This document shows positions 19,122-41,607 of a stretch of DNA of 64,000 nucleotides, piece by piece. Every line of letters begins with the position of its first letter. Position 1 is the stretch's first letter. The DNA is from Sporomusa sphaeroides DSM 2875 (GTDB taxonomy: Bacteria; Bacillota; Negativicutes; Sporomusales; Sporomusaceae). The notes under the pieces are model-generated. The model worked only from the letters and a program-made list of their open reading frames with translations, did no database searches and was not told the origin of the DNA. The stretch is taken from assembly GCF_001941975.2 (NCBI RefSeq), contig NZ_CP146991.1, positions 931,501 to 995,500 of the forward strand. The letters are read 5' to 3'. Position numbers and translations under genes: made by a program.

Positions 19122-21025
19122 GTGTTAGTTTGCCTCGAATGGGTGATAACTTGGTGGTGAAAGTCCACTACAGGCTTGGCAGTAGGAACTGTTAGCAGAG
19201 GGCAAGGGTGTCCGCCGTGAGGCGGAATCTGAAGTAAGCCTAATGCAAACCCTTGGTCTGACGAATAGAAACTACATATAAGGCATATGCAGGGAGGACG
19301 AGTTTGCTAACTAAAACAAAGTCCAATACTGCCCGAACCCTGTGGTGTAAATGTAGCAGATATATGAGGGGAAGGTTATCGCTCTTAACGGGGGAGGTCT
19401 CGCAAGGCTCCGAAAGACATAGGCAACCCCATGACACCCGGAGAACCCATGCAGTGATGTATGGCTAAATTGCAAGAAGTCAGCAGAGGTCATAGTACCG
19501 GATTTTTTTTCCGGGAAGGACCGAACAATAGTAGTCTTTGAACGAGAGGACGGTGAAGCAATGCAAAGAGAGCAGAAAACGACGAAAGTCGGCTACCGGT
19601 GTGAGGGTATGTTGGAAACAGAGAGTAATAGCGGAGCGCGGAGCATTGTTACGCCTGAAACCGCAGAGAAAGACGGTGCAAGTCGTTTGCTCGAAGCCAT
19701 ATTACACAGGGACAACCTCAATGCAGCCTACCTACGAGTAAAGCGAAACGGCGGCGCTCCGGGAGTTGACGGAATGGCAGTAGAAGAAATGCTGCCCTAT
19801 CTAAAGGACCATAAAGAGGAACTGTTGGCAAGTATTCGTGCCGGATGGTACAACCCCAAACCGGTCAGACGAGTAGAAATACCAAAGCCAGACGGGGGAA
19901 AGAGAAACCTTGGAGTACCAACGGTCATAGACCGTATGGTACAACAAGCCGTAGTACAGGTAATGCAACCCATGTTTGAGCCCCATTTCTCCGAAAACAG
20001 CTACGGTTTCCGACCGGGGCGCAGCGCCCATCAAGCCATGAAGAAGGCCGAAGAATATTATAAGCAGGGTTATATCAGAGTCGTAGACATAGACCTCGCT
20101 AAATATTTTGATACAGTCAATCATGACATTCTCATAGATAGGATAAGAGAAGTAATTAAGGATGAGCACGTCATCAAGCTGATACGTAAGTTCTTAAAGA
20201 GCGGCGTTATGGCAAACGGCTTAGTCAGTCCGACAACGGAGGGAACGCCACAAGGAGGCAACCTTTCACCACTTCTCAGCAACATATACCTTACGGCTTT
20301 CGACCGAATGCTGGAAAGCAGAGGTCATAAGTTTGTAAGGTATGCGGACGACTGCAATATTTACGTCAAAAGTCAAAGAGCGGCCGAGCGGGTAATGACC
20401 AGCAGCACGAAATATCTTGAGAACAAATTAAAACTTAAGGTAAACCAGGAAAAGAGCAAGGCGGGGAGCCCATTAAAACTTAAATTCCTAGGTTTTTCCC
20501 TATTTAAGACAGGGAAAAGAATGGGTATACGGCCACATGCCAAGTCGATGGAGAAATTCAAGAACAAAATCAGGCAATTAACAAGCAGAAAGCAAGCCAA
20601 GCCTATCCCGGCAATTCTAAACAATATCAGGAAATATACAACCGGATGGTTAGGCTATTATGCAATAGCTGAAATGAGTTCCAAGATAAAATCTCTTAAC
20701 GAATGGATACGCCGAAGAATAAGGCAAATCTTTTGGAAACAGTGGAAGAAACCCTCCGCAAAATTTAAGAACCTCATGCTCCACGGTATACCAAAGCAGA
20801 AGGCTAGAGAATGGTCTTATTCCCGACTAGGATATTGGCGTATTGCAGGTAGCTGGATTTTATGCAGGTCATTAACGAACGAATACCTCGCATCCATCGG
20901 CTATGATGATATAGCCAAAAGATACGAGGTATTGCACTTAAGCTATTGAACCGCCGTATACGGATCCGTACGTACGGTGGTGTGAGAAGTCGGCTACTCA
21001 ACTAATGCGTAGCCTCTTACTCGAT
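19122..21025 (+). mobile_element. Group II intron with encoded maturase
   Basis: About 1.9 kb. The 5' region (to 19560) is non-coding and highly structured, with the GTGAAAGTCCAC-type segment of domain I. The maturase follows. Behind it, 20948-20985 folds as domain V (an 8-bp outer stem ACCGCCGT/ACGGTGGT and an inner TACGGA/TCCGTA), then a domain VI hairpin with an unpaired A, and an end resembling ACTCGAT at 21025. The 3' edge is fairly sure; the 5' edge at 19122 is an estimate based on the end of the terminator stem. It lies in the same direction as the RND operon. Confidence 0.8.
19561..20949 (+). CDS. ltrA: Group II intron reverse transcriptase/maturase
   Basis: A 462-residue intron-encoded protein. 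The reverse transcriptase fingers-palm shows NSYGFRPGRSAHQAM, the TPQGGNLSPLLSNIYL block and the catalytic FVRYADDCNIYV. The maturase (X) domain follows at about 330-440 with IFWKQWKKP and YSRLGYWRIAGS. The protein ends without an HNH endonuclease domain, so it belongs to the endonuclease-less classes (C/D/E-like), which insert at hairpins or at replication forks. That agrees with its position behind a terminator stem. The frame is intact, so the element may still be active. Confidence 0.93.
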   Translation: MQREQKTTKVGYRCEGMLETESNSGARSIVTPETAEKDGASRLLEAILHRDNLNAAYLRVKRNGGAPGVDGMAVEEMLPYLKDHKEELLASIRAGWYNPKPVRRVEIPKPDGGKRNLGVPTVIDRMVQQAVVQVMQPMFEPHFSENSYGFRPGRSAHQAMKKAEEYYKQGYIRVVDIDLAKYFDTVNHDILIDRIREVIKDEHVIKLIRKFLKSGVMANGLVSPTTEGTPQGGNLSPLLSNIYLTAFDRMLESRGHKFVRYADDCNIYVKSQRAAERVMTSSTKYLENKLKLKVNQEKSKAGSPLKLKFLGFSLFKTGKRMGIRPHAKSMEKFKNKIRQLTSRKQAKPIPAILNNIRKYTTGWLGYYAIAEMSSKIKSLNEWIRRRIRQIFWKQWKKPSAKFKNLMLHGIPKQKAREWSYSRLGYWRIAGSWILCRSLTNEYLASIGYDDIAKRYEVLHLSY

Positions 21026-29517: not shown

Positions 29518-29643
29518 TTTATAGTAACTGCGCCAAACCACAGGGGAAATGTAAGCAGACGTGTTTGGCCTGTTTTGGTTTTATTGGCGGCAGGTATGGC
29601 AATGGGTATAGTCTTGGTACGCGAGAAGCAAAATGAGCGTCCC
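29515..29643 (+). pseudogene. Unknown reading frame cut by the second group II intron
   Basis: An open frame from a TTG at 29515 runs into the intron boundary. Its end, VWPVLVLLAAGMAMGIVL followed by REKQNERP, looks like a membrane anchor, so this may be the start of a membrane protein. No proper start codon or ribosome site is visible in frame. It does not match the protein fragment on the other side of the intron. Confidence 0.3.
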
Positions 29644-31520
29644 GTGCGCCAAGAAGCGCACGGAGTAAAGCGGGTGGAAATCCCGTCTGGGAAGGTCTAG
29701 CCAACCACCCAGTATCCAGCCTTGGGACTGAAGCGGTAACGCCAGGTCTAAGCGTAGGCAGGAAAGGTAGTAGGCCGAAAGCACAAGCTGAAGATGTAGA
29801 ATCCCGAAATCATCAATGGTCAAGGTCGATGCATGGGACGAGCAGAAGACAACACCGCAGTTAGCGATACAGGCGAGCTAATCGCGGCAGCCCGGGATCG
29901 TAGGTCTTGGCATGCTACACACTGTTACTCCGTGTGAACTTGGGAGACCCTGCCGCTCTCAAAGGAGTATGGCGGACAAGTCGAAGATGAGGAAGCCAAA
30001 TAAGCGACAGGGAGTCGGATTACGTCGTAGTACCGAAGAAGCCGGGTAATGCCAGCGGAGGGAAGGACGTAACATAGTAGTGGCCTTGGAAAAAGAAACA
30101 ATGCTGCACTGGAGGCAGAGAACCCATTGGAAACAAAGCTGACAAGGATAGCTGAATTAGCCAAACAAAGACCGAGAGTCAAGTTGCAAACCCTTATCCA
30201 TGCTATTGACGAGGAAAGCCTGAACGCGGCCCATAGTATTCTGTCAGCAGACAAGGCAGTAGGCGTTGATGGTGTAACCAAAGAAGAATACGGTGAAAAG
30301 CTACAGGAAAACATCAAGAATCTCCTGGAAAGAATGAAGCGGCAAGCGTACAAGCCGCAGCCAGTAAAGAGAGTCTACATCCCCAAAACGGATAAGAAGA
30401 AACGCCCACTAGGGATACCTGCCTATGAGGACAAACTGGTGCAGAAAGTACTTAATGAAGTCCTGACAGCCATCTACGAACCGGAATTTCTGGACTGCTC
30501 CTACGGTTTCAGACCAGAGAGAAATTGCCATGAAGCGCTGAAGGAAATCACCAAGATTCTCGAAAGCAAGAAGGTCAGCTATGTAGTGGATGCGGACATT
30601 AAAGGATTCTTTGACAACGTAGAACACGGGTGGATGGTGAAGTTTCTACAAGAACGAATCCAAGACCCGAATCTATTGAGACTGATAGTACGATTTCTTA
30701 AAGCAGGTGTCATGGAACAGGGGAAACTAGAAGAGGCGGACACCGGAACGCCGCAAGGGGGAATCATATCCCCAACCCTGGCGAACATATACCTGCACTA
30801 TGTGCTCGACCTGTGGTTTATGGTAAAGATAAAGCGGGAATGCAGAGGCGAGGCCTATTTAATTCGGTACTGTGACGACTTTGTATGCTTCTTTCAATAC
30901 CAAGAAGATGCCGAAGATTTCTACGGTAAGTTGATAGAACGATTGAGGAAATTCAACCTAGAAATAGCAGAGGAGAAAACAAAGACTATCGAATTCGGGC
31001 GCTTTGCTGAGGAAAGACGGAATAACCAAGGGGCCAGCAAACCGGAGACATTCGACTTTCTTGGGTTCACGCACTACTGTAGCAAGAGCAAGAAGGGAAA
31101 ATTCCGCGTCAAAAGGAAAACCAGCCGGAAGAAATTGAGAGCAAAGCTAAAACATTTCGCTGGATGGCTCTATCAAAATATGCATACAGAGATAGGAAAA
31201 TTGATTAAGCAGATAAACATCAAGCTGGTTGGTCACTTCCGCTACTATGGAGTAACCGACAACAGCAGCGCTATCAATACATTTGGATACTATATACGGC
31301 GTAAATTGTTTGAAGTACTTAATCGAAGAAGCCAAAAGAAGAGCTTGACCTGGGAAGGATTTGCAAAACTCAAAGATAGATTCCCGCTAGCTAAAGCGAG
31401 GATCTATGTAAATATCTATGGCTAAACGTAAGTAAATGCTGCTATGAAGAGCCGGATGCCTTAATAGGGCACGTCCGGTTCTGTGAGGGGGGCGTGCCGC
31501 GAGGCGCGCTTCTACTCGAC
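29644..31520 (+). mobile_element. Second group II intron with encoded maturase
   Basis: The 5' end reads GTGCGCCAAGAAGCGCACGG with the usual GTGCG start; about 480 bases of structured non-coding RNA follow, then the maturase. Domain V is clear (GAGCCGGATGCC ... GTCCGGTTC at about 31450-31482), domain VI follows and the element ends CTACTCGAC at 31520. The flanking exons do not belong to one gene: an unknown membrane-anchor frame on the left and a CorC-like tail on the right. It differs clearly from the intron at 19122. Confidence 0.9.
30127..31425 (+). CDS. ltrA: Group II intron reverse transcriptase/maturase (YCDD variant)
   Basis: A 432-residue intron protein. Reverse transcriptase blocks: RPLGIPAYEDKLVQKVLNEV, CSYGFRPERNCHEAL, GTPQGGIISPTLANIYLHYV and the catalytic LIRYCDDFVCFF, in which the usual YADD is YCDD; both catalytic aspartates are kept. 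A shortened maturase region follows and the protein ends without an endonuclease domain. The start is TTG at 30127 with GGAGG about 11 bases upstream. It is only distantly similar to the maturase at 19561, so the two introns arrived separately. Confidence 0.92.
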   Translation: METKLTRIAELAKQRPRVKLQTLIHAIDEESLNAAHSILSADKAVGVDGVTKEEYGEKLQENIKNLLERMKRQAYKPQPVKRVYIPKTDKKKRPLGIPAYEDKLVQKVLNEVLTAIYEPEFLDCSYGFRPERNCHEALKEITKILESKKVSYVVDADIKGFFDNVEHGWMVKFLQERIQDPNLLRLIVRFLKAGVMEQGKLEEADTGTPQGGIISPTLANIYLHYVLDLWFMVKIKRECRGEAYLIRYCDDFVCFFQYQEDAEDFYGKLIERLRKFNLEIAEEKTKTIEFGRFAEERRNNQGASKPETFDFLGFTHYCSKSKKGKFRVKRKTSRKKLRAKLKHFAGWLYQNMHTEIGKLIKQINIKLVGHFRYYGVTDNSSAINTFGYYIRRKLFEVLNRRSQKKSLTWEGFAKLKDRFPLAKARIYVNIYG

Positions 31521-31522
31521 CG

Positions 31523-31681
31523 CGCTTCTCCGAAGATATTTTAAAAGAAATCGTCGGCGAAATCCAAGATGAGTTTGACGAAGAGCGGCCTGTTGTTGAA
31601 ATGCGGGCCGATAATGCCCGTTCGGTTGATGGACGCCTGCTGTTAGGGGAAATCAACGAAGTTTTGGGGCTGGATTATTAA
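31523..31681 (+). pseudogene. C-terminal remnant of a CorC/TlyC-type (hemolysin-family) protein
   Basis: Directly behind the intron, 52 codons read FSEDILKEIVGEIQDEFD, then a stretch with RSVDGRLLLGEINEVLGLDY and a stop. EDILEEIVGEIQDE is the junction of the second CBS domain and the CorC_HlyC domain of CNNM/CorC-type transporters. The membrane and CBS parts are absent, so the gene is broken. A good terminator follows. Confidence 0.75.
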
Positions 31682-31686
31682 TATTC

Positions 31687-31733
31687 AAAGCATCACCTCC
31701 TGTTTTTTACAAACAGGAGGTGATGCTTTTTAA
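31687..31733 (+). terminator. Terminator after the CorC-like remnant
   Basis: A 19-bp nearly perfect stem (31687-31705 with 31711-31729) and a short T tail. Confidence 0.85.
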
Positions 31734-31756
31734 TTAACATGAATTTGAACAAAATC

Positions 31757-31822
31757 TTTACATTTTTTTTACATGAATGAGTTATTTCTTAACGACATCT
31801 TTACAGCATTTAAGGGTAAAAT
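31757..31822 (+). promoter_or_regulatory. KdpE/PhoB-type promoter of the lytic transglycosylase
   Basis: TTTACA at 31757-31762, again at 31768-31773 (11-base spacing) and at 31800-31805, then a -10 TAAAAT at 31817-31822. No normal -35 exists, so an activator is expected. The whole geometry is repeated before kdpFABC at 36545. Confidence 0.65.
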
Positions 31823-31963
31823 AGTAGCGTTATTCAAACTTGTTGCTTTGAGATCCTGTAAACGATTGTTTGATGCGGGGGAGTTCGCTATTTGACAGTC
31901 TTTTCACAGATATGCTAGGAGCTTAGGGTTATTTAGAAATCTTAACAACGGAGTGATCCTATA

Positions 31964-32527
31964 GTGAATTATACCTGGATGAAAGTCCTGGTAGTCGGGG
32001 TGTTTCTTGTAGTCGGGGCAAGTTGTATATATACTAGCGATTGGTTTCAAAAAAAATATGCCTATCCTTTTCTCTATAATGAACTCGTATGTCAATATGC
32101 CGCAAAACATGAGCTGGACCCGTGGCTGGTAACCGGAGTCATCAAGGCAGAAAGTAAGTTTGTGTTAGAAGCCAAGTCGCCTGTAGGGGCAGTAGGCTTA
32201 ATGCAGTTAATGCCTGAAACCGCACAGTGGATTGCCGTGCAGAGCGAAGATCCTGGTTTTCAGCTGCAGGATTTAGCATCGCCGGAAGTTAATATTCGGT
32301 TCGGTACGTGGTATCTGGCATCACTAAAGTATGAATTTAATGGGAATGAAGTGCTGATATTGGCTGCTTATAATGCTGGTAGAGGTAACGTAAAAGAATG
32401 GATGGAACAATATGGGTGGAATATGGAATTTCGTGATATAGAGCAAATTCCGTTTCCGGAAACCAGAGAGTTTATCCGTGAAGTGCTTTGGAATAAGAAG
32501 AGATATCAGGAATTATACAATCGATAA
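31964..32527 (+). CDS. Membrane-anchored lytic transglycosylase (SLT domain)
   Basis: A 187-residue murein-cleaving enzyme. One N-terminal membrane helix (about 7-24) anchors it; the SLT/goose-lysozyme-like domain follows, with catalytic Glu63 in IKAESKF, then GAVGLMQLMPETAQWIA and AAYNAGRGNVKEW. It cuts peptidoglycan between MurNAc and GlcNAc, forming anhydro ends. Start GTG at 31964 behind GGAGTG. Its promoter has the same activator boxes as kdpFABC, tying wall remodelling to the potassium/turgor response. Confidence 0.92.
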   Translation: MNYTWMKVLVVGVFLVVGASCIYTSDWFQKKYAYPFLYNELVCQYAAKHELDPWLVTGVIKAESKFVLEAKSPVGAVGLMQLMPETAQWIAVQSEDPGFQLQDLASPEVNIRFGTWYLASLKYEFNGNEVLILAAYNAGRGNVKEWMEQYGWNMEFRDIEQIPFPETREFIREVLWNKKRYQELYNR

Positions 32528-32585
32528 AACCCACGTCTCAGCTTAGTCACGGCAACTTATTCGTAAAATACAGGAAGCATAGCAG

Positions 32586-32821
32586 GCGGTAATCACTGGC
32601 CCGCCGGGAGTTGGAGTGGATGATAATGGCGTTGGTGCTGCGCGCTTTTGCTAATGGCTGCAACTGCCATGATGATTATCCTTAAAAAAATAAAAAGGCA
32701 TTATTTAGATATGGCGGAACAGTTGTATTTGCCGCTGGAAGAGTTGCTACGCTTTCCTTTCACTTGCAGAAATAGATGGGTTAGAGTACCGTGTCCGCTG
32801 AAGGCACGGTACTTCTTATAA
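32586..32821 (+). pseudogene. Degenerate fragments of an APC-type permease (possibly K+ transporter KimA-like)
   Basis: In the 518-base gap before kdpD, three frames each hold a piece that reads like one permease: GPPGVGVDDNGVGAA, MALVLRAFANGC (compare LRAFANGC-type helices of APC permeases) and, one frame over, IILKKIKRHYLDMAEQLYLP, which resembles the cytoplasmic HYxxVAEQL region of KimA/YdaO-type transporters. Frameshifts and stops separate them. It is interpreted as a decayed gene; the exact family is uncertain. The rest of the gap (32822-33045) is AT-rich leader sequence. Confidence 0.45.
32785..32813 (+). terminator. Hairpin at the end of the permease remnant
   Basis: A perfect 9-bp stem AGTACCGTG/CACGGTACT with an 11-base loop and TTCTTAT after it; a weak terminator. 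Confidence 0.5.
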
Positions 32822-33045
32822 AATATGGTTTTATGATTCGTAGTACAGATAAATGCTTGCTAAAATGATTTGTTGAAGACATGTAGGTGAAATGGTATTC
32901 AAGCAGAAAACAATAGTTGTAGACGTAATAAAAACTACTTGACATTACTTTTTAAAATCGGATGCTGTTTCTTACTAGTGTGGACCCATTGCCTCAATAC
33001 TTAGAATAAGATAAACGTTTGCTTAATAAGGAGTTGATATAGCGC

Positions 33046-35805
33046 ATGAAAAAAGAGGAGGAACGCCGGCCTGACCCTGAAGAGTTGCTGCAACGAATTC
33101 ATAAAGAGCATCAGGGGAAGTTAACGATTTTTTTGGGAGCGGCTGCCGGTGTTGGTAAAACATATACCATGCTGGAAGCCGCGCATGACCGGTTGGCAGA
33201 AGGTGTGCGGGTGGCAATTGGCTGGGTGGAAACGCATGGCCGGGCAGAGACGGAGAAATTAGTGATAGGCTTACCACGCATTGCTCCTACCGTATTAGAA
33301 TACCGAGGCAAGAAGCTGACGGAAATGGGGATTGACGCGATTCTGGAGCAAAAGCCGGAACTGGTATTGGTGGATGAACTAGCACATACCAACGTGAAGG
33401 GCTCCCGGCACGTCCGGCGCTTTCAGGATGTAGAGGAGTTATTAAATGCCGGAATCGATGTTTATACAACGCTGAATATTCAACATATCGAAAGCCTTAA
33501 CGATGTGGTTGCCCAGATTACTGGTATCATTGTCCGGGAAACAGTACCGGACTCGTTTGTGGAGCAGGCCGACAATATCCAGTTGATTGATATACCGCCG
33601 GAAGATCTGATTAAACGGTTAAAGGACGGCAAGGTCTATATTTCCGGTCAGGCGCAGCAGGCGTTAAAAAGTTTTTTCCGTCCGGGAAATATTAATGCCT
33701 TGCGGGAGCTTGCCCTGCGCTTTACCGCCTCCCGGGTCGATCAGGATATGGCAGAATACATGCGGAAAAATCATATCGACGGGCCATGGCCGGCAGCCGG
33801 CCGGGTAATGGTTTGTGTCAGTGCCAGCCCTTTTTCGGCCCAGCTTATCCGGGCTGCTCAGCGTTTGGCAAAAGGATTACGGGCGGATTTTCTGGCTGTC
33901 TATGTCGACACCCCATCCCGCCGCTTTCCCATGGGGGAAAAGGAACGGGACCGGGTGTGGCGCAATTTGAACCTGGCAGAGGAATTGGGTGGCAAAATTG
34001 TTACGGTGGCTGGCAACGACATTGTTGAGGAAATGATGAACGTTGCCCGTAACGAAAATGTAACGGCTGTTGTGATCGGCAAACCGCGCCATAGCCGTCT
34101 GCGGGAATTTTGGCATGGGTCACTGGTGGACAAGTTGCTTCGAAAGAGTGAGGGCATTAACGTGTATGTCATTCAAAGTAAAGCAGAGGCGGAAACGCAT
34201 TCTGCTATCAGCACCGCCCGGAATGACGTGCCGGCAATCGCCTGGTTGCCGATTACCGGAGGGCTGGTGATGACGTCAGTGGTTACGGCTATTAGCTGGG
34301 TGGGCAGAGAACAATTAGAGCAGGTCAATATTGCCCTGTTGTATTTATTGCCGATTTTATTTACCGCTGTTCGCTGGGGCCGTTGGCCGTCCTATATTAC
34401 AGCGCTGGCCAGTGTCCTGGCGTTTGACTTTTTATTTACTCCGCCTCTGTTAACATTTAATGTGAGTGATATTCGCTATTTATGGAGTTTTACTATTTTC
34501 CTGGTCATTTCCTTTGTAGTTGGCGGTCGGACGGAAATGCTAAAAAAAGAAGTGCGTTTAACAAGGCAGCGGGAAACCAGTGTCCGTACCTTATATGATT
34601 TTAGCAGCCAGATTGCGGCGATTATTGATGTAAACCAGATTGCCTGGACCTTTGTCAGACACACAGGTGTAGCGCTTGGACGAAATACGGTACTGCTCTT
34701 GCCGGAAGAACAGGGAAGTTTGAAGGTAGAAGCACAATATGAGGCTAATATGCCGGAGGGCAGAGGAGGCCAAGCGGAATTGCCTGCCGCAGAACATGCA
34801 GTGGCGAATTGGGTTTGGGTTAATGGGCAGGTAGCAGGACGATCTACGGAGACGCTGCCTGGTGCTGAATTTTTATTCGTGCCGCTGACTGTTGACCGAC
34901 GGACGGTAGGGGTATTTGGTATCGAATTGGGGCAGCAGAAAATGACGCAGGAAGAGCGGCAGCTAATTTATGCCTGGGCAGGCTTGGCAGCCATTGCCGT
35001 GGAACGGGGTAAGCTAACGGAGGCTGCCCGGCAGGCGGCATTATTAAAAGAGTCTGATCAGTTGCGCACGGCATTATTTAATTCAGTCTCTCACGAACTA
35101 AGGACGCCGCTGGCTGAAATTAGCGCGGCTATTGCCACTTTACTGGATAGCTCGACGCAATATAGCGCTGAAATCCGCCAGGAACTGCTGGAAACGGTGA
35201 AAAGTAGTGCTACCCGCATGGAGCGCGTAGTGGCAAATTTACTGAACACTGCTCGGCTGGAAAGCGGGATGCTGCAATTAAAGATAGACTGGTGTGATGT
35301 AGAAGATATTGTGGGCACAGCAATTCGCCGCATGGGTGAAACAACGCACAATCATATCCTCAGGACCCGGATCGCTCCTGATTTGCCGCTGCTTCGGGCC
35401 GATTGCGTCTTACTGGAGCATGTTGTAGTGAATTTACTGGATAACGCCATTAAATACTCGCCTCCTGGCACAGAACTCACCATTGCCGCTGAGCAAAGCG
35501 GGTCGGAAATTTTTGTTTCCGTAGAAGATAATGGCTGTGGCATTTCCCTGCAGGATTTAGCTAAAATATTTGATAAATTTTACCGGGCATCGCAGCAGGC
35601 CGTACAGGTTGCCGGCACAGGCTTGGGTTTATCCATTTGCAAAAGTATCATAGAAGCTCATCAGGGGCGAATTTGGGCTAAGAATAACCCGGGTGGAGGA
35701 GCAATTTTTGTTTTTGCTGTACCTGTACCTGCTAATGGTAGTCGGAGTGTGATTAAGGAGAGTGAGTGGGATGACAGAAAAGGGACTCCGAATTTTGGTG
35801 GTTGA
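33046..35805 (+). CDS. kdpD: Sensor histidine kinase KdpD
   Basis: A 919-residue full-length KdpD. N-terminal KdpD ATP-binding domain with GAAAGVGKT (31-39) and LVLVDELAHTN (106-116); a universal-stress-protein domain (about 252-378); four short membrane helices (DUF4118, about 400-495); a GAF-like region (about 515-655); histidine kinase with phospho-acceptor H683 in SVSHELRTPL; and the ATPase domain with N and G boxes (LLDNAIKYSPPG, GLGLSICKSI). It senses low potassium or turgor and phosphorylates KdpE. ATG has AAGGAG upstream. The gene overlaps kdpE by 35 bases. Confidence 0.97.
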   Translation: MKKEEERRPDPEELLQRIHKEHQGKLTIFLGAAAGVGKTYTMLEAAHDRLAEGVRVAIGWVETHGRAETEKLVIGLPRIAPTVLEYRGKKLTEMGIDAILEQKPELVLVDELAHTNVKGSRHVRRFQDVEELLNAGIDVYTTLNIQHIESLNDVVAQITGIIVRETVPDSFVEQADNIQLIDIPPEDLIKRLKDGKVYISGQAQQALKSFFRPGNINALRELALRFTASRVDQDMAEYMRKNHIDGPWPAAGRVMVCVSASPFSAQLIRAAQRLAKGLRADFLAVYVDTPSRRFPMGEKERDRVWRNLNLAEELGGKIVTVAGNDIVEEMMNVARNENVTAVVIGKPRHSRLREFWHGSLVDKLLRKSEGINVYVIQSKAEAETHSAISTARNDVPAIAWLPITGGLVMTSVVTAISWVGREQLEQVNIALLYLLPILFTAVRWGRWPSYITALASVLAFDFLFTPPLLTFNVSDIRYLWSFTIFLVISFVVGGRTEMLKKEVRLTRQRETSVRTLYDFSSQIAAIIDVNQIAWTFVRHTGVALGRNTVLLLPEEQGSLKVEAQYEANMPEGRGGQAELPAAEHAVANWVWVNGQVAGRSTETLPGAEFLFVPLTVDRRTVGVFGIELGQQKMTQEERQLIYAWAGLAAIAVERGKLTEAARQAALLKESDQLRTALFNSVSHELRTPLAEISAAIATLLDSSTQYSAEIRQELLETVKSSATRMERVVANLLNTARLESGMLQLKIDWCDVEDIVGTAIRRMGETTHNHILRTRIAPDLPLLRADCVLLEHVVVNLLDNAIKYSPPGTELTIAAEQSGSEIFVSVEDNGCGISLQDLAKIFDKFYRASQQAVQVAGTGLGLSICKSIIEAHQGRIWAKNNPGGGAIFVFAVPVPANGSRSVIKESEWDDRKGTPNFGG

Positions 35806-36460
35806 TGATGAGCCGCAAATGCGAAAATTACTCCATGTTTCTCTGCTTGCGCATGGTTATCAATTATGCGAGACGGCAAATGGGCTGGAAGGCATTCAGC
35901 AGGCGGCGGCCTTTAAACCTGATCTGGTCATTGTGGACCTGGGATTGCCGGATATGGACGGCAAACAGGTTATTCAGCAGATTCGCGAGTGGTCAGCGGT
36001 ACCCATGATTATTTTGACAGCCCGTGAGCAGGAAGAGGAAAAGATTGCTGCGCTGGACGCCGGTGCAGATGACTATATTACCAAGCCATTCGGGATAGGT
36101 GAGCTTATGGCACGTATACGGGTCTGCCTGCGCCGGGTAGGAAGCAGTGACAACGAACCGATCCGGCGCTGCGGTGGTTTGGCTGTCGATCTGCTGCAAC
36201 GGCGGGTCACTGTGGATGAACGGGAGATCAAACTGACGCCAACGGAGTATGAATTGATCAAATTCATGATGCTCCATGCTGGGCGGGTGTTGACGCACAA
36301 GCAATTGTTAAAGGCGGGGTGGGGCAATGCTTGCGGGGAGGATACCCACTATATTCGCATCTACATTGGCCAGCTGCGACGCAAGATTGAGCAGGACCCG
36401 GCTCAGCCCCGTTATATTGTCACCGAATCGGGCGTTGGCTATCGGCTGATGGGACGTTAG
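35771..36460 (+). CDS. kdpE: Response regulator KdpE
   Basis: A 229-residue OmpR/PhoB-family regulator: receiver domain with acidic pocket D12/D13, phospho-acceptor D56 (VIVDLGLPD) and Lys in YITKPFG; then a winged-helix DNA-binding domain (about 130-229, LTPTEYELIKF and YIGQLRRKIEQ). A GTG at 35762 opens the frame, but ATG 35771 has AAGGAG at a better distance. It lies inside the end of kdpD, so the pair is coupled. It should bind the TTTACA-type repeats before kdpFABC and, by inference, before the transglycosylase. Confidence 0.96.
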   Translation: MTEKGLRILVVDDEPQMRKLLHVSLLAHGYQLCETANGLEGIQQAAAFKPDLVIVDLGLPDMDGKQVIQQIREWSAVPMIILTAREQEEEKIAALDAGADDYITKPFGIGELMARIRVCLRRVGSSDNEPIRRCGGLAVDLLQRRVTVDEREIKLTPTEYELIKFMMLHAGRVLTHKQLLKAGWGNACGEDTHYIRIYIGQLRRKIEQDPAQPRYIVTESGVGYRLMGR

Positions 36461-36474
36461 ACGCCTGTCATTTA

Positions 36475-36517
36475 AAAAGAAACAGACTGCTTATGACAAG
36501 CGGTCTGTTTCTTTTTT
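36475..36517 (+). terminator. Terminator after kdpE
   Basis: A stem of about 15 bp (AAAGAAACAGACTGC with GCGGTCTGTTTCTTT) and a T run. It separates kdpDE from the structural genes, so kdpFABC has its own promoter. Confidence 0.85.
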
Positions 36518-36544
36518 GCCGTAAAGGGCAGAGGGAGCGAAATC

Positions 36545-36610
36545 TTTACATATTTTTTATGCCTTAAGCTAATCTTTTATCAGCATCTTTATCTCCACCG
36601 GAGGTACAAT
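36545..36610 (+). promoter_or_regulatory. KdpE-type promoter of kdpFABC
   Basis: TTTACA (36545-36550), TTTATG (36556-36561, 11-base spacing), TTTATC (36588-36593) and -10 TACAAT (36605-36610). The first pair resembles the E. coli KdpE site (TTTATA-N5-TTTACA). The third repeat replaces a normal -35 and lies 11 bases from the -10, exactly as in the transglycosylase promoter. Confidence 0.7.
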
Positions 36611-36644
36611 AAATTTGAAGTTCAAAGGCGGTAGGAGGGAAACT

Positions 36645-36731
36645 ATGGCTGACTTATGGTTGGCAGGAATTGGGGCTGTCTTGTTACTGGTGTACTTACT
36701 TTACGCTTTATGGAAACCGGAGGAATTTTAA
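36645..36731 (+). CDS. kdpF: KdpF, small stabilising subunit of the K+ ATPase
   Basis: Only 28 residues, one membrane helix (ADLWLAGIGAVLLLVYLLYA) and a short KPEEF tail, the normal KdpF size and form. GTAGGAGGG lies just before the ATG. It ends two bases before kdpA, and its last codons contain the kdpA ribosome site. KdpF stabilises the KdpABC complex. Confidence 0.9.
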   Translation: MADLWLAGIGAVLLLVYLLYALWKPEEF

Positions 36732-36732
36732 C

Positions 36733-38439
36733 ATGATGACAGATATGATAATGTTTGGGCTGTTTCTCATTGTGGTACTGCTGCTGGCTTGGCCTTTGAG
36801 CAAGTATATGGCTAAAGTGTTTACGATAGAAAAGACATTCCTTGATCCAGTGCTTCAGCCGTTGGAGCGGCTGCTCTACCGATTGGCAGGGATCAAGCCG
36901 GAACAGGAGATGAATTGGCGACAGTATGCCGGAGCACTACTGCTGTTTAACGTGTTAGGTGCAACCGTTGTTTTTCTCATTCAAATTCTGCAAGGTGCAC
37001 TCATTTGGAATCCAGCCGATCTCAGCGGCGTCTCTCCCTGGCATTTGGCGTTCAATACAGCGGTCAGCTTTATGACCAATACGAACTGGCAATCCTACGG
37101 CGGGGAATCGACCATGAGCTATTTCACCCAGATGACGGCGCTAACTGTGCAGAACTTTGTTTCAGCAGCCGTGGGGTTGGCAGTAGCGGTGGCCTTGATC
37201 CGGGGATTAACCCGTAAGTCGGTTTCAACTATCGGCAATTTCTGGGTCGATCTGGTGCGGGGTACACTCCGCGTGTTGTTACCTTTAGCGATTGTGTTTA
37301 CCTTACTGTTGGTGCAGCAAGGGGCGATACAGAATTTATCCGCTTACCTGACAGTACAAACGCTGGAGGGCGCGGAACAAATCCTGGCAATGGGGCCGGT
37401 GGCTTCCCAGGAAGCCATTAAAATGTTAGGAACGAATGGCGGCGGTTTCTTTAACGCCAACTCGGCCCATCCCTTTGAAAACCCTACACCGTTGACTAGC
37501 TTTTTGCAAGCGGTCAGTATTTTTCTCATTCCCACAGCGCTGGTGCTGGCTTTCGGACGGATGGCCCGGGACCGGCGGCAGGGATACGCTGTATTGGCGA
37601 CAATGGCGTTGTTGTTTGTTCTGATGCTGACAGGGACTTACCTCAGTGAGTTGCATGGAAATCCGAACTTGGCCGGTTGGGGTGTGGACGGTCCTACGGC
37701 TATGGAAGGCAAGGAAGTACGGTTTGGTATCGCCGGTTCAGCCTTGTTCGCTACGGTCACGACAGCGGCTTCCTGCGGTGCGGTGAATGCTATGCATGAC
37801 AGCTTTACACCGCTGGGCGGCCTCTTTCCTTTATTGCAGATGCAGCTGGGAGAAGTCATTATCGGCGGGGTTGGCGCCGGGTTTTACGGGATGATGCTGT
37901 TTGTTATTTTGACGGTATTTATTGTAGGGCTGATGGTTGGCAGAACGCCGGAATATCTCGGGAAAAAAATTGAAGCCCGGGAGACCAAAATGGCAACACT
38001 GGGGATATTATTCCCCTCGGTTACAATCCTGACCAGCAGTGCTATTGCCGCAGTCACGGGACCCGGCACATCCTCTGTTTTTAATCCCGGGCCGCATGGC
38101 CTGAGTGAGGTCATGTATGCGTTCGCTTCTGCCGTAGGTAATAACGGCAGTGCCTTTGGCGGCTTAAGTGCGAACACCCCTTTTTATAATGTAATGCTGG
38201 CAATGGGAATGCTGATTGGTCGTTTTAGTGTCATTCTGTCCATTCTGGCGATTGCCGGCGGCATGGCGGAAAAGAAGGTTTCCCCTCCCGGACCCGGCAC
38301 ATTCTCGACAACCGGTTGGCTGTTTGTGATGCTCTTAGCTGGTATTGTCCTGATCATCGGTGCCTTAACATTCTTACCAATGCTGACGTTGGGACCGATC
38401 GTCGAACAGTTGCTGATGCTGCAAGGGACTACGTTTTAA
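36733..38439 (+). CDS. kdpA: Potassium-transporting ATPase subunit KdpA
   Basis: A 568-residue potassium channel-like subunit with ten membrane helices and the four selectivity-filter-type loops, seen as TNTNWQSYGGE, GTNGGGFFNANSAHP, SCGAVNAM and NNGSAFGG. The frame opens further upstream at 36670, but the ATG at 36733 with GGAGG in kdpF is the right start and gives the usual length. It binds and passes K+ in the high-affinity KdpFABC pump. Confidence 0.97.
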   Translation: MMTDMIMFGLFLIVVLLLAWPLSKYMAKVFTIEKTFLDPVLQPLERLLYRLAGIKPEQEMNWRQYAGALLLFNVLGATVVFLIQILQGALIWNPADLSGVSPWHLAFNTAVSFMTNTNWQSYGGESTMSYFTQMTALTVQNFVSAAVGLAVAVALIRGLTRKSVSTIGNFWVDLVRGTLRVLLPLAIVFTLLLVQQGAIQNLSAYLTVQTLEGAEQILAMGPVASQEAIKMLGTNGGGFFNANSAHPFENPTPLTSFLQAVSIFLIPTALVLAFGRMARDRRQGYAVLATMALLFVLMLTGTYLSELHGNPNLAGWGVDGPTAMEGKEVRFGIAGSALFATVTTAASCGAVNAMHDSFTPLGGLFPLLQMQLGEVIIGGVGAGFYGMMLFVILTVFIVGLMVGRTPEYLGKKIEARETKMATLGILFPSVTILTSSAIAAVTGPGTSSVFNPGPHGLSEVMYAFASAVGNNGSAFGGLSANTPFYNVMLAMGMLIGRFSVILSILAIAGGMAEKKVSPPGPGTFSTTGWLFVMLLAGIVLIIGALTFLPMLTLGPIVEQLLMLQGTTF

Positions 38440-38454
38440 AAGGAGCGAATGGGA

Positions 38455-40488
38455 ATGAATACTACTCGAGGCAGCTTTAATAAAGAAATCTTAGGAACTG
38501 CAGTGCGCGATGCATTTCGTAAGTTAAGCCCGCGCACACAAATGCGGAATCCGGTCATGCTGATCGTGTATATCGGGGCGATTATCACCACATGGTTTAC
38601 GGTACGTGATTTTATGCAGGGAGACGGTCAGTCGACCTTCTTTACCTTGCAAATCACACTGTGGTTATGGTTTACAGTTTTGTTTGCTAATTTCGCCGAA
38701 GCGGTTGCCGAAGGACGGGGAAAGGCGCAGGCTAATGCCTTGCGCAGCAGCCGTCGCCGGACGAAGGCCAAGAAAGTCAACGGCAGCGAGAAGATCTTGG
38801 TAGATGCGGTCGAACTGCGTAAGGGGGACATTGTGCTTGTGGAAGCCGGGGATTTCATTCCCGGCGACGGCGAAATCATCGAAGGGATGGCATCGGTCGA
38901 TGAAAGCGCTGTAACTGGAGAATCGGCGCCGGTCATTCGTGAATCAGGCGGCGATAAATCTTCGGTCACTGGCGGAACCCGGGTGTTGTCTGACTGGATT
39001 AAAATCCAGATTACGGCCAATCCCGGCGAAACATTTCTTGATAGGATGATTTCCCTGGTAGAAGGGGCGAAACGGCAAAAAACACCTAACGAGATTGCCC
39101 TGACAATTTTGCTGATTGGCTTGACCATTATCTTTCTGTTTGCCGTAGCTACGCTGGCACCCTTTGGCATATATTCCGAGATCAATATACCGGTGGCAGT
39201 CTTAATTGCCTTGCTGGTCTGCTTGATTCCCACAACCATTGGTGGGTTGCTTTCGGCCATTGGCATTGCCGGTATGGACCGGCTGCTAAAACGGAACGTG
39301 CTGGCCATGTCCGGTCGGGCTGTAGAGGCAGCAGGTGATGTGGATGCACTGCTGCTGGATAAAACCGGCACCATTACGCTTGGTAACCGGATGGCGACTG
39401 AGTTTATCCCGGTTCCCGGCATTAGTCCGGAACAACTGGCCGATGCGGCGCAACTGGCCTCGTTGGCTGATGAAACACCGGAAGGCCGGAGCATCGTTAT
39501 CTTGGCTAAAGAAAAGTACAATCTGCGGGAACGGAACTTAACGGCGATGGAAGCCGAGTTTGTTCCCTTCACGGCGCAGACCCGGATGAGCGGTGTGAAC
39601 GTAACTGGCCGGGAAATCCGCAAAGGTGCGGTGGATGCCATCAAAAAATATACGCAAGGGCAGGAGGGAGCATTCCCTGATGCGGTTGAAAAAGCTTGTG
39701 AGACAATTGCCAAGAGCGGCGGGACACCTCTTGTCGTGGCGGAAGGCGCACACGTGCTTGGTGCCATTCACCTGAAAGATATTGTGAAAGGCGGTATTAA
39801 GGAACGATTTCGCGATCTCAGGCAGATGGGAATCAAAACCATCATGATTACCGGTGATAATCCGCTGACTGCTGCCGCGATTGCTGCCGAGGCCGGAGTG
39901 GATGATTTCCTGGCTGAAGCAACGCCGGAAGATAAATTACGGTTAATACGCCAGTATCAAGAACAGGGGATGCTGGTTGCCATGACCGGTGACGGCACCA
40001 ACGATGCACCGGCATTGGCCCAGGCTGATGTGGGGGTAGCCATGAACAGCGGCACGCAGGCCGCCAAAGAAGCTGGTAATATGGTTGATCTTGATAGTAA
40101 TCCCACCAAGCTGATTGAAGTGGTGGAAATCGGCAAGCAGCTTTTAATTACCCGTGGCTCCCTGACCACATTCAGTGTGGCCAATGATATCGCCAAATAT
40201 TTTGCGATCATTCCGGCTATGTTTACCGGAGCGTTTCCGGTGCTAAACGTCTTCAATGTCATGGCCCTGTCTACTCCGGAAAGTGCAATTCTAAGTGCCG
40301 TTATCTTTAACGCCTTAGTTATCATCACCTTGATCCCGCTGGCTTTGCGGGGAGTACAATACCGGCCGGTAGGAGCCGAAATCCTGCTCAGACGTAACCT
40401 GCTGATTTATGGTGTAGGAGGAATCTTGGCTCCCTTTATTGGGATTAAGCTGATCGACTTGATTATTGTAGCACTTGGACTGGTTTAG
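38455..40488 (+). CDS. kdpB: Potassium-transporting P-type ATPase subunit KdpB
   Basis: A 677-residue catalytic subunit. The actuator loop TGESAPV, phosphorylated D302 in [10 protein letters not shown], the nucleotide-binding domain and the hinge [19 protein letters not shown] are all present, along with seven membrane helices. It drives K+ uptake by ATP. Two ATGs are possible; the second (38455) is chosen since AAGGAG is nine bases from it and only three from the first (38449). Confidence 0.97.
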
Positions 40489-40547
40489 CAATGACGGCAA
40501 GGTAAAGAGAATGGTTCCAGAATGAAAGGAAAGGGTGGTGAACAAAA

Positions 40548-41138
40548 ATGTTTCGACAAATTATCAGTGCGGCAGTCCTCTTTGTCGCGCTAACCATGAT
40601 AACCGGTTTTGTTTATCCTCTAGTGATGACGGGCTTGTCACAGGTAGTTTTTCCTGATCAAGCTAACGGGTCGATGATCGTTCGTGACGGAGTACCGATC
40701 GGTTCCAGATTAATTGGTCAAATTTTTACCAGTCCCGGCTATTTCCATAGCCGGCCATCGGCGGCTGGCAAGGATGGCTATGACGGGGCCAGTTCCTCCG
40801 GTTCCAACCTGGGGCCAACCAATCAGAAACTGGCGGATACGGTGAAGGGTAATGTGCAAAAAGTACGGGAAGAAAACGACTTGCCTGCAGGGACTGCGGT
40901 ACCTTCTGACTTAGTGCTGGCCTCGGGGAGCGGCCTTGATCCCCACATCACACCTGATGCTGCTTATGCCCAGGCGCAGCGGGTTGCCAGGGAGCGTGGG
41001 CTAAGTCCTGATGTGGTGCGACAACTGGTGAAGCAGCATGTGGAAGGAAGGCAATGGGGCATTTTGGGCGAACCCCGTGTCAATGTGCTGGAATTGAATT
41101 TGGCACTTGATGCCTGGCAAGTATCCCATTCTCGTTAA
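40548..41138 (+). CDS. kdpC: Potassium-transporting ATPase subunit KdpC
   Basis: A 196-residue KdpC: one N-terminal membrane helix, then a soluble part with [33 protein letters not shown] and [15 protein letters not shown], all family hallmarks. It raises the nucleotide affinity of KdpB. It follows kdpB after 59 bases and completes the kdpFABC set. Confidence 0.97.
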
Positions 41139-41181
41139 AATTAATCGAAATGATAGAGAATAAATGGAGTGTAGTGTTTAC

Positions 41182-41607
41182 GTGGATAAAGGAAAAAACA
41201 TTCTCTTCTTATTAACACCGAAAGCCATGGTTGCATTTCTTTACGATCACTGTTCCCTGCGGCAAGGACTGGAAAAAATGAGGTTTCATGGCTATACGGC
41301 CATACCTGTTATATCAAAGGATGGAACTTATATCGGAACCGTCAGTGAAGGCAATTTCTTATGGCATCTAGTGGATAGTGGTGTGTATACCATGAAATTA
41401 CAGGAAGAGTATTCGATTCTGGATATAATTCGAAGCGGTTGGAATCCTGCGATTAAGATTGATACTACCATGGATGAATTACTTCTGCGCGTTATGGATC
41501 AAAATTTTGTTCCGGTAGTTGATGACCGGGAAAAATTTATGGGGATTATAACGCGTAAAGATGTAATTAAGTATTATCACAGTGCACTGGGACCCAATAC
41601 GCCTTGA
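41182..41607 (+). CDS. CBS-domain protein downstream of kdpC
   Basis: About 141 residues made of a CBS pair: first module near 15-60 (SLRQGLEKMRFHGYTAIPVI), second near 85-140 (MDELLLRVMDQNFVPVVDD). Such small proteins usually sense adenine nucleotides or cyclic di-AMP. Position right behind kdpC suggests a link to potassium control. The frame opens with ATG 41164, but GTG 41182 fits the family's usual beginning and has GGAG 11 bases upstream; either is possible. Confidence 0.8.
   Translation: MDKGKNILFLLTPKAMVAFLYDHCSLRQGLEKMRFHGYTAIPVISKDGTYIGTVSEGNFLWHLVDSGVYTMKLQEEYSILDIIRSGWNPAIKIDTTMDELLLRVMDQNFVPVVDDREKFMGIITRKDVIKYYHSALGPNTP

Follow-up and report, generated by a model that had tools for sequence, protein, structure and literature searches.

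Introduction

In Escherichia coli, a single pair of half-sites, TTTATA and TTTACA, is described as the site of the response regulator KdpE before kdpFABC, with a footprint from −72 to −50, and residues R193, R200 and T215 of KdpE are important for DNA binding, according to the accessible part of the report (PMC3264566). The accessible part of a further paper indicates that KdpE has targets besides kdpFABC and describes its site diffusely (PMC3610689). Genes under the c-di-AMP (ydaO/kimA) riboswitch form another related system. Like the arrangement examined here, they bring potassium import and wall hydrolysis together under a single level of control; the system differs in being an RNA switch, in the types of hydrolase controlled and in not involving KdpE. 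In literature drawn mostly from outside subscription journals, we found no link between KdpE and a transglycosylase, no KdpE box before kimA and no second KdpE box.

Here we analyse a stretch of 64,000 nucleotides (the window) of the Sporomusa sphaeroides DSM 2875 genome, in which one promoter, site A, precedes a lytic transglycosylase gene and another, site B, precedes kdpFABC. With a probability of about 0.85, we hold that the transglycosylase at site A lies behind an intact KdpE promoter captured from kimA, and that site B is a promoter of the same type.

Results

Site A carries TTTACA at 31757-31762, 31768-31773 (+11) and 31800-31805 (+43) on the + strand, and its −10 element, TAAAAT (31817-31822), lies 11 bases past the last of these; no sigma-70-type −35 was found for it. 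Site B, also on the + strand, is spaced identically, with TTTACA at 36545, TTTATG at 36556, TTTATC at 36588 and the −10 TACAAT at 36605-36610. Both sites thus place their hexamers at 0, +11 and +43, with the −10 following at +60. A further hexamer stands at +32 in both, TTAACG (31789-31794) in site A and TTATCA (36577-36582) in site B. Numbered by position as boxes 1 to 4, the hexamers form a first pair, the predicted KdpE box (TTTACA-N5-TTTACA at 31757-31773; TTTACA-N5-TTTATG at 36545-36561), and a second pair (TTAACG and TTTACA at 31789-31805, a putative second KdpE dimer site; TTATCA-N5-TTTATC at 36577-36593). The geometry claimed in the original prediction, hexamers 11 apart, a third at 43 and a −10 11 bases beyond, was found to be exact at both promoters. 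Its remark that the other bases differ understates the likeness, as 53 of 91 ungapped positions are identical, including AAATCTTTACAT, CATCTTTA and GGTAnAAT.

The first pair had also been likened to the E. coli KdpE site, and the kdpF promoter of E. coli K-12 bears this out with TTTATA-N5-TTTACA at the same offset. Its full arrangement, TTTATA-N5-TTTACA-N15-TTTGCG-N5-TTTGCA-N10-TACCCT, resembles sites A and B in the half-sites at 0/11 and in further hexamers at +32 (TTTGCG) and +43 (TTTGCA), and differs in its −10, which is at +59 rather than +60. Reckoned from the −10, boxes 1-2 of sites A and B occupy the position of the E. coli footprint. The regulator encoded in the window (kdpE, 35774-36460, + strand) is identical to E. 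coli KdpE at 110 of 224 residues and keeps R193, R200 and T215; the NCBIfam KdpE model is its best match, under the cut-off (263 of 325 bits).

A genome scan with the spaced motif, proposed together with the original prediction, returned sites A and B as the sole places at ≤1 mismatch in the 5.0-Mb genome, and the pattern read backwards as a control gave 0. Within the window, no other match to any of five tried patterns was found. In 20 Mb simulated with a first-order Markov model of the window and searched on both strands, three TTTA at 0/11/43 occurred in 11 places, equal to 2.75 per 5-Mb genome, and no such triple was accompanied by the −10. Because the genome holds no other match and no simulated triple had a −10, we consider that the full geometry is not due to chance. 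Its parts are less telling. The pair TTTAYA-N5-TTTAYA alone is uninformative here (8 genome places versus 10 in the control), and the four boxes without the −10, at ≤3 mismatches, matched 80 places versus 102 in the control; among these, site A alone has 0 mismatches, and site B and C1:3206654 have one. As the four-box scan stays at control level, no further KdpE target can be named in this genome.

We then searched for the pattern in 12 genomes of the family (≤2 mismatches) and 300 of the class (≤1 mismatch). The class scan gave 74 places versus 26 in the backwards control, with the caution that near kin share history, so that neither these counts nor those of the logo below are independent. 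Among 21 exact class matches, 18 precede kdpA, kdpD or kimA (site B included; in G020 an HTH gene intervenes, and in G006 the kdpD is cut to 140 aa); the others are site A, one before an unrelated gene (G284) and one in G076. The gene in G284 (L163) is not K+-like in look, and the match is probably due to chance. In G006 (L008), the KdpE-type site and 140-aa kdpD frame are followed by an unrelated gene, and this kdpD has apparently decayed. Sites with one mismatch were found before more kdpA, kdpD and kimA genes, before TrkH-type uptake genes (PF02386) and before a CBS protein akin to the c-di-AMP-binding CbpB, under that model's cut-off; others precede unrelated genes and are chance-like. The four-box promoter before TrkH-type genes of G021, G024 and G025 (L176, L178, L179; Pfam on the first two) suggests that these genes are KdpE targets there. 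The kdpDE/kimA/kdpFABC clusters of G017, G012, G003, G005, G006, G007 and G009 likewise bear the same boxes before kimA, kdpD or kdpA; they differ from the window in that kimA is present and no transglycosylase is among the genes read. No transglycosylase lay downstream of the pattern at any of the 53 other places where downstream genes were read.

A logo of 43 sites selected as K+ promoters reads T(38) T(41) G(27)/A(8)/T(8) A(37) C(35) in columns 32-36, which lie outside the search pattern and are the only columns to offer a fair test. Rows whose next gene is not K+-related were left out of it, namely 10 of 38 class rows (G203, G116, G104, G236, G053, G064, one of two from G028, G284, G118 and G154) and 3 of 16 family rows (L030, L005, L028), and the logo is also without several class places at one mismatch and most other family places at two. 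One of L166-L171 (G269), which precedes kdpA, is likewise absent, and the E. coli row has its −10 one base out of register.

The second pair was also examined with a free offset in 18 Bacillota kdpA upstream regions, drawn phylum-wide by a KdpA protein model and not by the pattern (four of 22 KdpA matches, one fragment and three under cut-off, were left out). The best box pair at offsets 20 to 45 was compared with 20 shuffles. Ten regions scored clearly above the shuffles, nine at an offset of 31-33 and one at 22, site B being one of the ten and also part of the training set; one more, with its best pair at offset 45, exceeded them by 0.1, and the remaining 7 did not exceed them. Among ten plasmid kdp loci, those of Pluralibacter, Ideonella and Phenylobacterium scored above 40 shuffles at 32-33, as did the E. 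coli kdp promoter in the same box-pair test. In Pluralibacter, offset 22 scores almost as high, and in Phenylobacterium the third hexamer is poor. Judged from the logo and these scores, two KdpE dimer sites, three helical turns apart and with the second at the −35 position, are probable.

Next, site A was compared with relatives. In G017, a genome of the same order and another family, an ortholog of site A precedes an intact 605-aa KimA, whose only solved-structure match is KimA 6s3k (E 1.4e-158), followed by kdpDE, site B and kdpFABC. Site A agrees with this ortholog at 57 of 66 bases, 28 of 30 within the boxes and 29 of 36 outside. The window aligns with the G017 locus from 31732 to 31879, breaks, and resumes at 32536-32596 within the kimA leader. 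The first half of a kimA leader remnant is thus at 31823-31879 (+ strand) and the second at 32536-32596 (+ strand; 55 of 61 bases as in G017). Between them lies an insert of ~655 bp (31880-32535, + strand, edges good to a few bases), absent from G017, with the transglycosylase gene. Past 32596, the alignment to G017 continues through three kimA scraps and a hairpin to kdpD. The scraps (32593-32809, + strand; tblastn, blastn 85-89%) correspond to G017 residues 198-222, 430-484 and 596-605. The hairpin behind them (32784-32814, + strand; fold −19.1) is conserved with G017 and is a likely terminator, as is a strong one between the end of the upstream gene and site A (31687-31729, + strand; −31.0 kcal/mol for 31685-31737); both terminator calls rest on folds and conservation, and the consensus scan lists neither hairpin. 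Promoter, leader, coding remnants and terminator of an orphaned KimA unit are all present in order. By alignment, site A formerly served a kimA that has since been lost, and the transglycosylase gene is inserted in the leader of that kimA.

DNA identity to G017 is 88% for kdpDE, 90% for kdpA and 83-90% for the kimA leader and scraps. Since leader and scraps are no more decayed than the intact kdpDE, the insertion looks young. The conservation of the site A boxes is therefore weak evidence of selection for the transglycosylase, because the insert could be young and neutral. For the 5′ flank of the insert, we found no kin; the only matches were one of 9 bases at the ribosome-binding site and short ones attributable to chance. 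An inverted match of 7 bases close to the insert edges probably also arose by chance.

The inserted gene (31964-32527, + strand) encodes an extra paralog of 187 aa with a PF01464 match (E 5e-29), and its ES..F catalytic motif aligns with a solved Slt enzyme; by sequence it is an SLT-type lytic transglycosylase with the catalytic Glu motif, and its activity is predicted. Another copy, the regular one, sits in the mutM-coaE neighbourhood of the same genome; it shares 63% identity with the window enzyme and lacks the box. A search of 380 class genomes gave a match at E ≤ 1e-40 in 336, and two copies were found only in the window genome and in G552, where one match is at a contig end and the other is not among the matches listed. 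The mutM-coaE-linked transglycosylases of Negativicutes belong to the same family as the window enzyme and differ in the absence of an upstream KdpE box: no paired box was found within 500 bp upstream of any of 27 regular copies (28 order genomes, G016 being without a copy; the own copy is included). At 80 further transglycosylase loci, only a two-box match was found, in two of them (L108, L112). In a tree without four long rows (L082, L058, L070, L072), the window copy falls outside the Sporomusa group, and a forced single clade, chosen for testing after the first tree, was just rejected (p-AU 0.048). Transfer of the gene from another Negativicute is the favoured interpretation of this placement. 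The transglycosylases of G003 and G004, which belong to the genus of the window genome, are identical to those of S. acidovorans and S. malonica, and the assignment of the genus to Sporomusa rests on this. Its GC content is 0.42, compared with 0.41 for the regular copy and 0.50-0.53 for the kdp genes.

The rest of the cluster, all on the + strand, comprises a degenerate KdpE-type site before kdpD (32942-33006, ends approximate), intact in G002; the sensor kinase gene kdpD (33046-35805; PF02702, KdpD as the best NCBIfam match under cut-off); kdpE, placed above; and kdpFABC (36645-41138; kdpA, kdpB and kdpC by Pfam, kdpF by reading). A CBS-domain gene (41164-41607) directly follows kdpC, and in G003 a CBS gene that resembles it and is CbpB-like comes with a KdpE-type site of its own. 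The cluster (31732-41138; kdpDE and kdpA compared) has 88-90% DNA identity to that of G017, a member of another family (L172), and several members of the genus have a different order, kdpE and then kimA. Judged by these comparisons, the cluster has probably moved between lineages.

Elsewhere in the genome, four c-di-AMP riboswitches are found (contig C1, 2277297, 1730016, 2125729 and 4612824). Three of the four precede likely wall-hydrolase genes and one a KimA-like gene, as judged by reading the proteins. Given these four riboswitches, a tie between K+ and wall hydrolases would not be out of place in this genome.

Discussion

Sites A and B share the geometry of a KdpE-type promoter without a usable −35, so control by KdpE is what we would predict first for the gene behind site A, and it is likely. 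In the model we propose, KdpD would phosphorylate KdpE at low K+, and phosphorylated KdpE would bind sites A and B, on boxes 1-2, as shown in E. coli, and probably also on boxes 3-4. The second KdpE dimer would take the place of a −35 and recruit RNA polymerase when potassium is short. Both promoters would then fire, site B driving kdpFABC and site A giving a transcript that would run from the leader remnant through the transglycosylase gene to the inherited kimA hairpin. The lineage would have gained the transglycosylase paralog by insertion into the leader of kimA and lost the greater part of kimA by deletion. The sequences themselves show the geometry, its recurrence before K+ genes, the kimA remnants, the insert and the paralogy; KdpE binding, induction when K+ is low, a second dimer and an advantage to the cell, if there is one, are inferred.

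The original prediction held that KdpE controls a wall enzyme together with K+ uptake. The KdpE-type promoter geometry makes the regulatory half of this likely, and the kimA history and the boxless regular copies limit what it means. The further claim of a link between turgor and wall growth was not supported: the regular copies lack the box, and the functional conclusion goes too far, since the arrangement is accounted for by its history, an insertion into the leader of kimA. The connection of potassium with wall cutting is plausible, but it looks like the outcome of promoter capture in a single lineage and does not look general.

It is nevertheless possible, if doubtful, that the transglycosylase belongs to the KdpE regulon by selection, and that low K+ raises wall cutting so as to keep turgor and growth in balance. 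Its promoter boxes are intact, as are its reading frame and catalytic motif, K+ and wall enzymes are already under one c-di-AMP riboswitch layer in this genome, and the accessible part of a published study describes a riboswitch-controlled wall peptidase in C. glutamicum (PMC9960051). Set against this, a second copy occurs here and otherwise in G552 alone among the 380 class genomes, the regular copies have no box, and insertion in the kimA unit explains the arrangement. A wider reading, in which tandem KdpE boxes extend from E. coli to Bacillota and the capture is combined with low-K+ induction and a selected turgor-wall effect, is less probable still, and we regard it as rather unlikely. It is more unlikely again that the insert carries a promoter of its own from which the transglycosylase is expressed independently of site A. 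The start codon lies about 85 bp into the insert, and a TTGACA (31892-31897) lies before it without a good −10 at 16-18 bases; the consensus scan leaves room for a promoter within the insert. In that scan, nevertheless, 31640-33060 showed no + strand promoter of sigma-70-like type, and the interval from site A to the transglycosylase showed no terminator-like site, the one weak terminator-like site (31985-32001) being inside the gene.

The identity of the regulator and the role of boxes 3-4 must also be weighed. WalR controls wall hydrolases, and its box is TGTWAH-N5-TGTWAH. Boxes 1-2 of site A (TTTACA-N5-TTTACA) fit this consensus on the minus strand and those of site B do not, and the pair is unspecific by itself, as the scan with TTTAYA-N5-TTTAYA showed. 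We consider it very improbable, all the same, that a different member of the OmpR family, such as WalR or PhoB, acts at site A: K+ genes are preceded again and again by the longer geometry, many such sites have TTTATA or TTTATG, outside the minus-strand WalR form, and site A is an orthologous kimA promoter. It is possible, though less likely than not, that boxes 3-4 are a stretched −35 (TTGACR, 22 bases from the −10) that works with an activator and are not a KdpE site. The box 3 consensus TTGACR does resemble a −35, and the E. coli footprint, in the accessible part of its report, ends at −50, short of boxes 3-4 (PMC3264566); this end either speaks against KdpE on the second pair or reflects low affinity. 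However, a spacing of 22 bases is longer than the usual 16-18, box 4 follows box 3 as a repeat 11 bases on, just as box 2 follows box 1, and the boxes co-drift in some loci, with boxes 1, 2 and 4 of Ideonella all TTGATG. An intact KdpE promoter captured from kimA remains our preferred reading of site A. Counting against this reading, 8 of the 18 Bacillota kdpA upstream regions and 7 of the 10 plasmid kdp loci are without clear tandem boxes, and the kdpD-proximal KdpE-type site has decayed.

These comparisons provide a precise, searchable description of the KdpE promoter as four half-sites and a −10, by which genes for KimA, TrkH-type and CBS proteins and kdpDE stand out in Negativicutes as likely targets of KdpE. 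The locus is also a readable case of promoter capture, in which the output of a regulon would have been changed by a gene insertion in a leader and the loss of the old gene. It carries a warning, too, that a common box alone does not show an old functional link.

A 49-aa frame (31532-31678) is, by eye, similar to the terminal part of a CorC-like protein, has no Pfam match, and follows a group II intron (29640-31520) that lies just upstream of site A, with RF02005 and RF00029 matches and an intron reverse transcriptase (PF00078) at 30127-31425. A second intron is present at 19211-21025.
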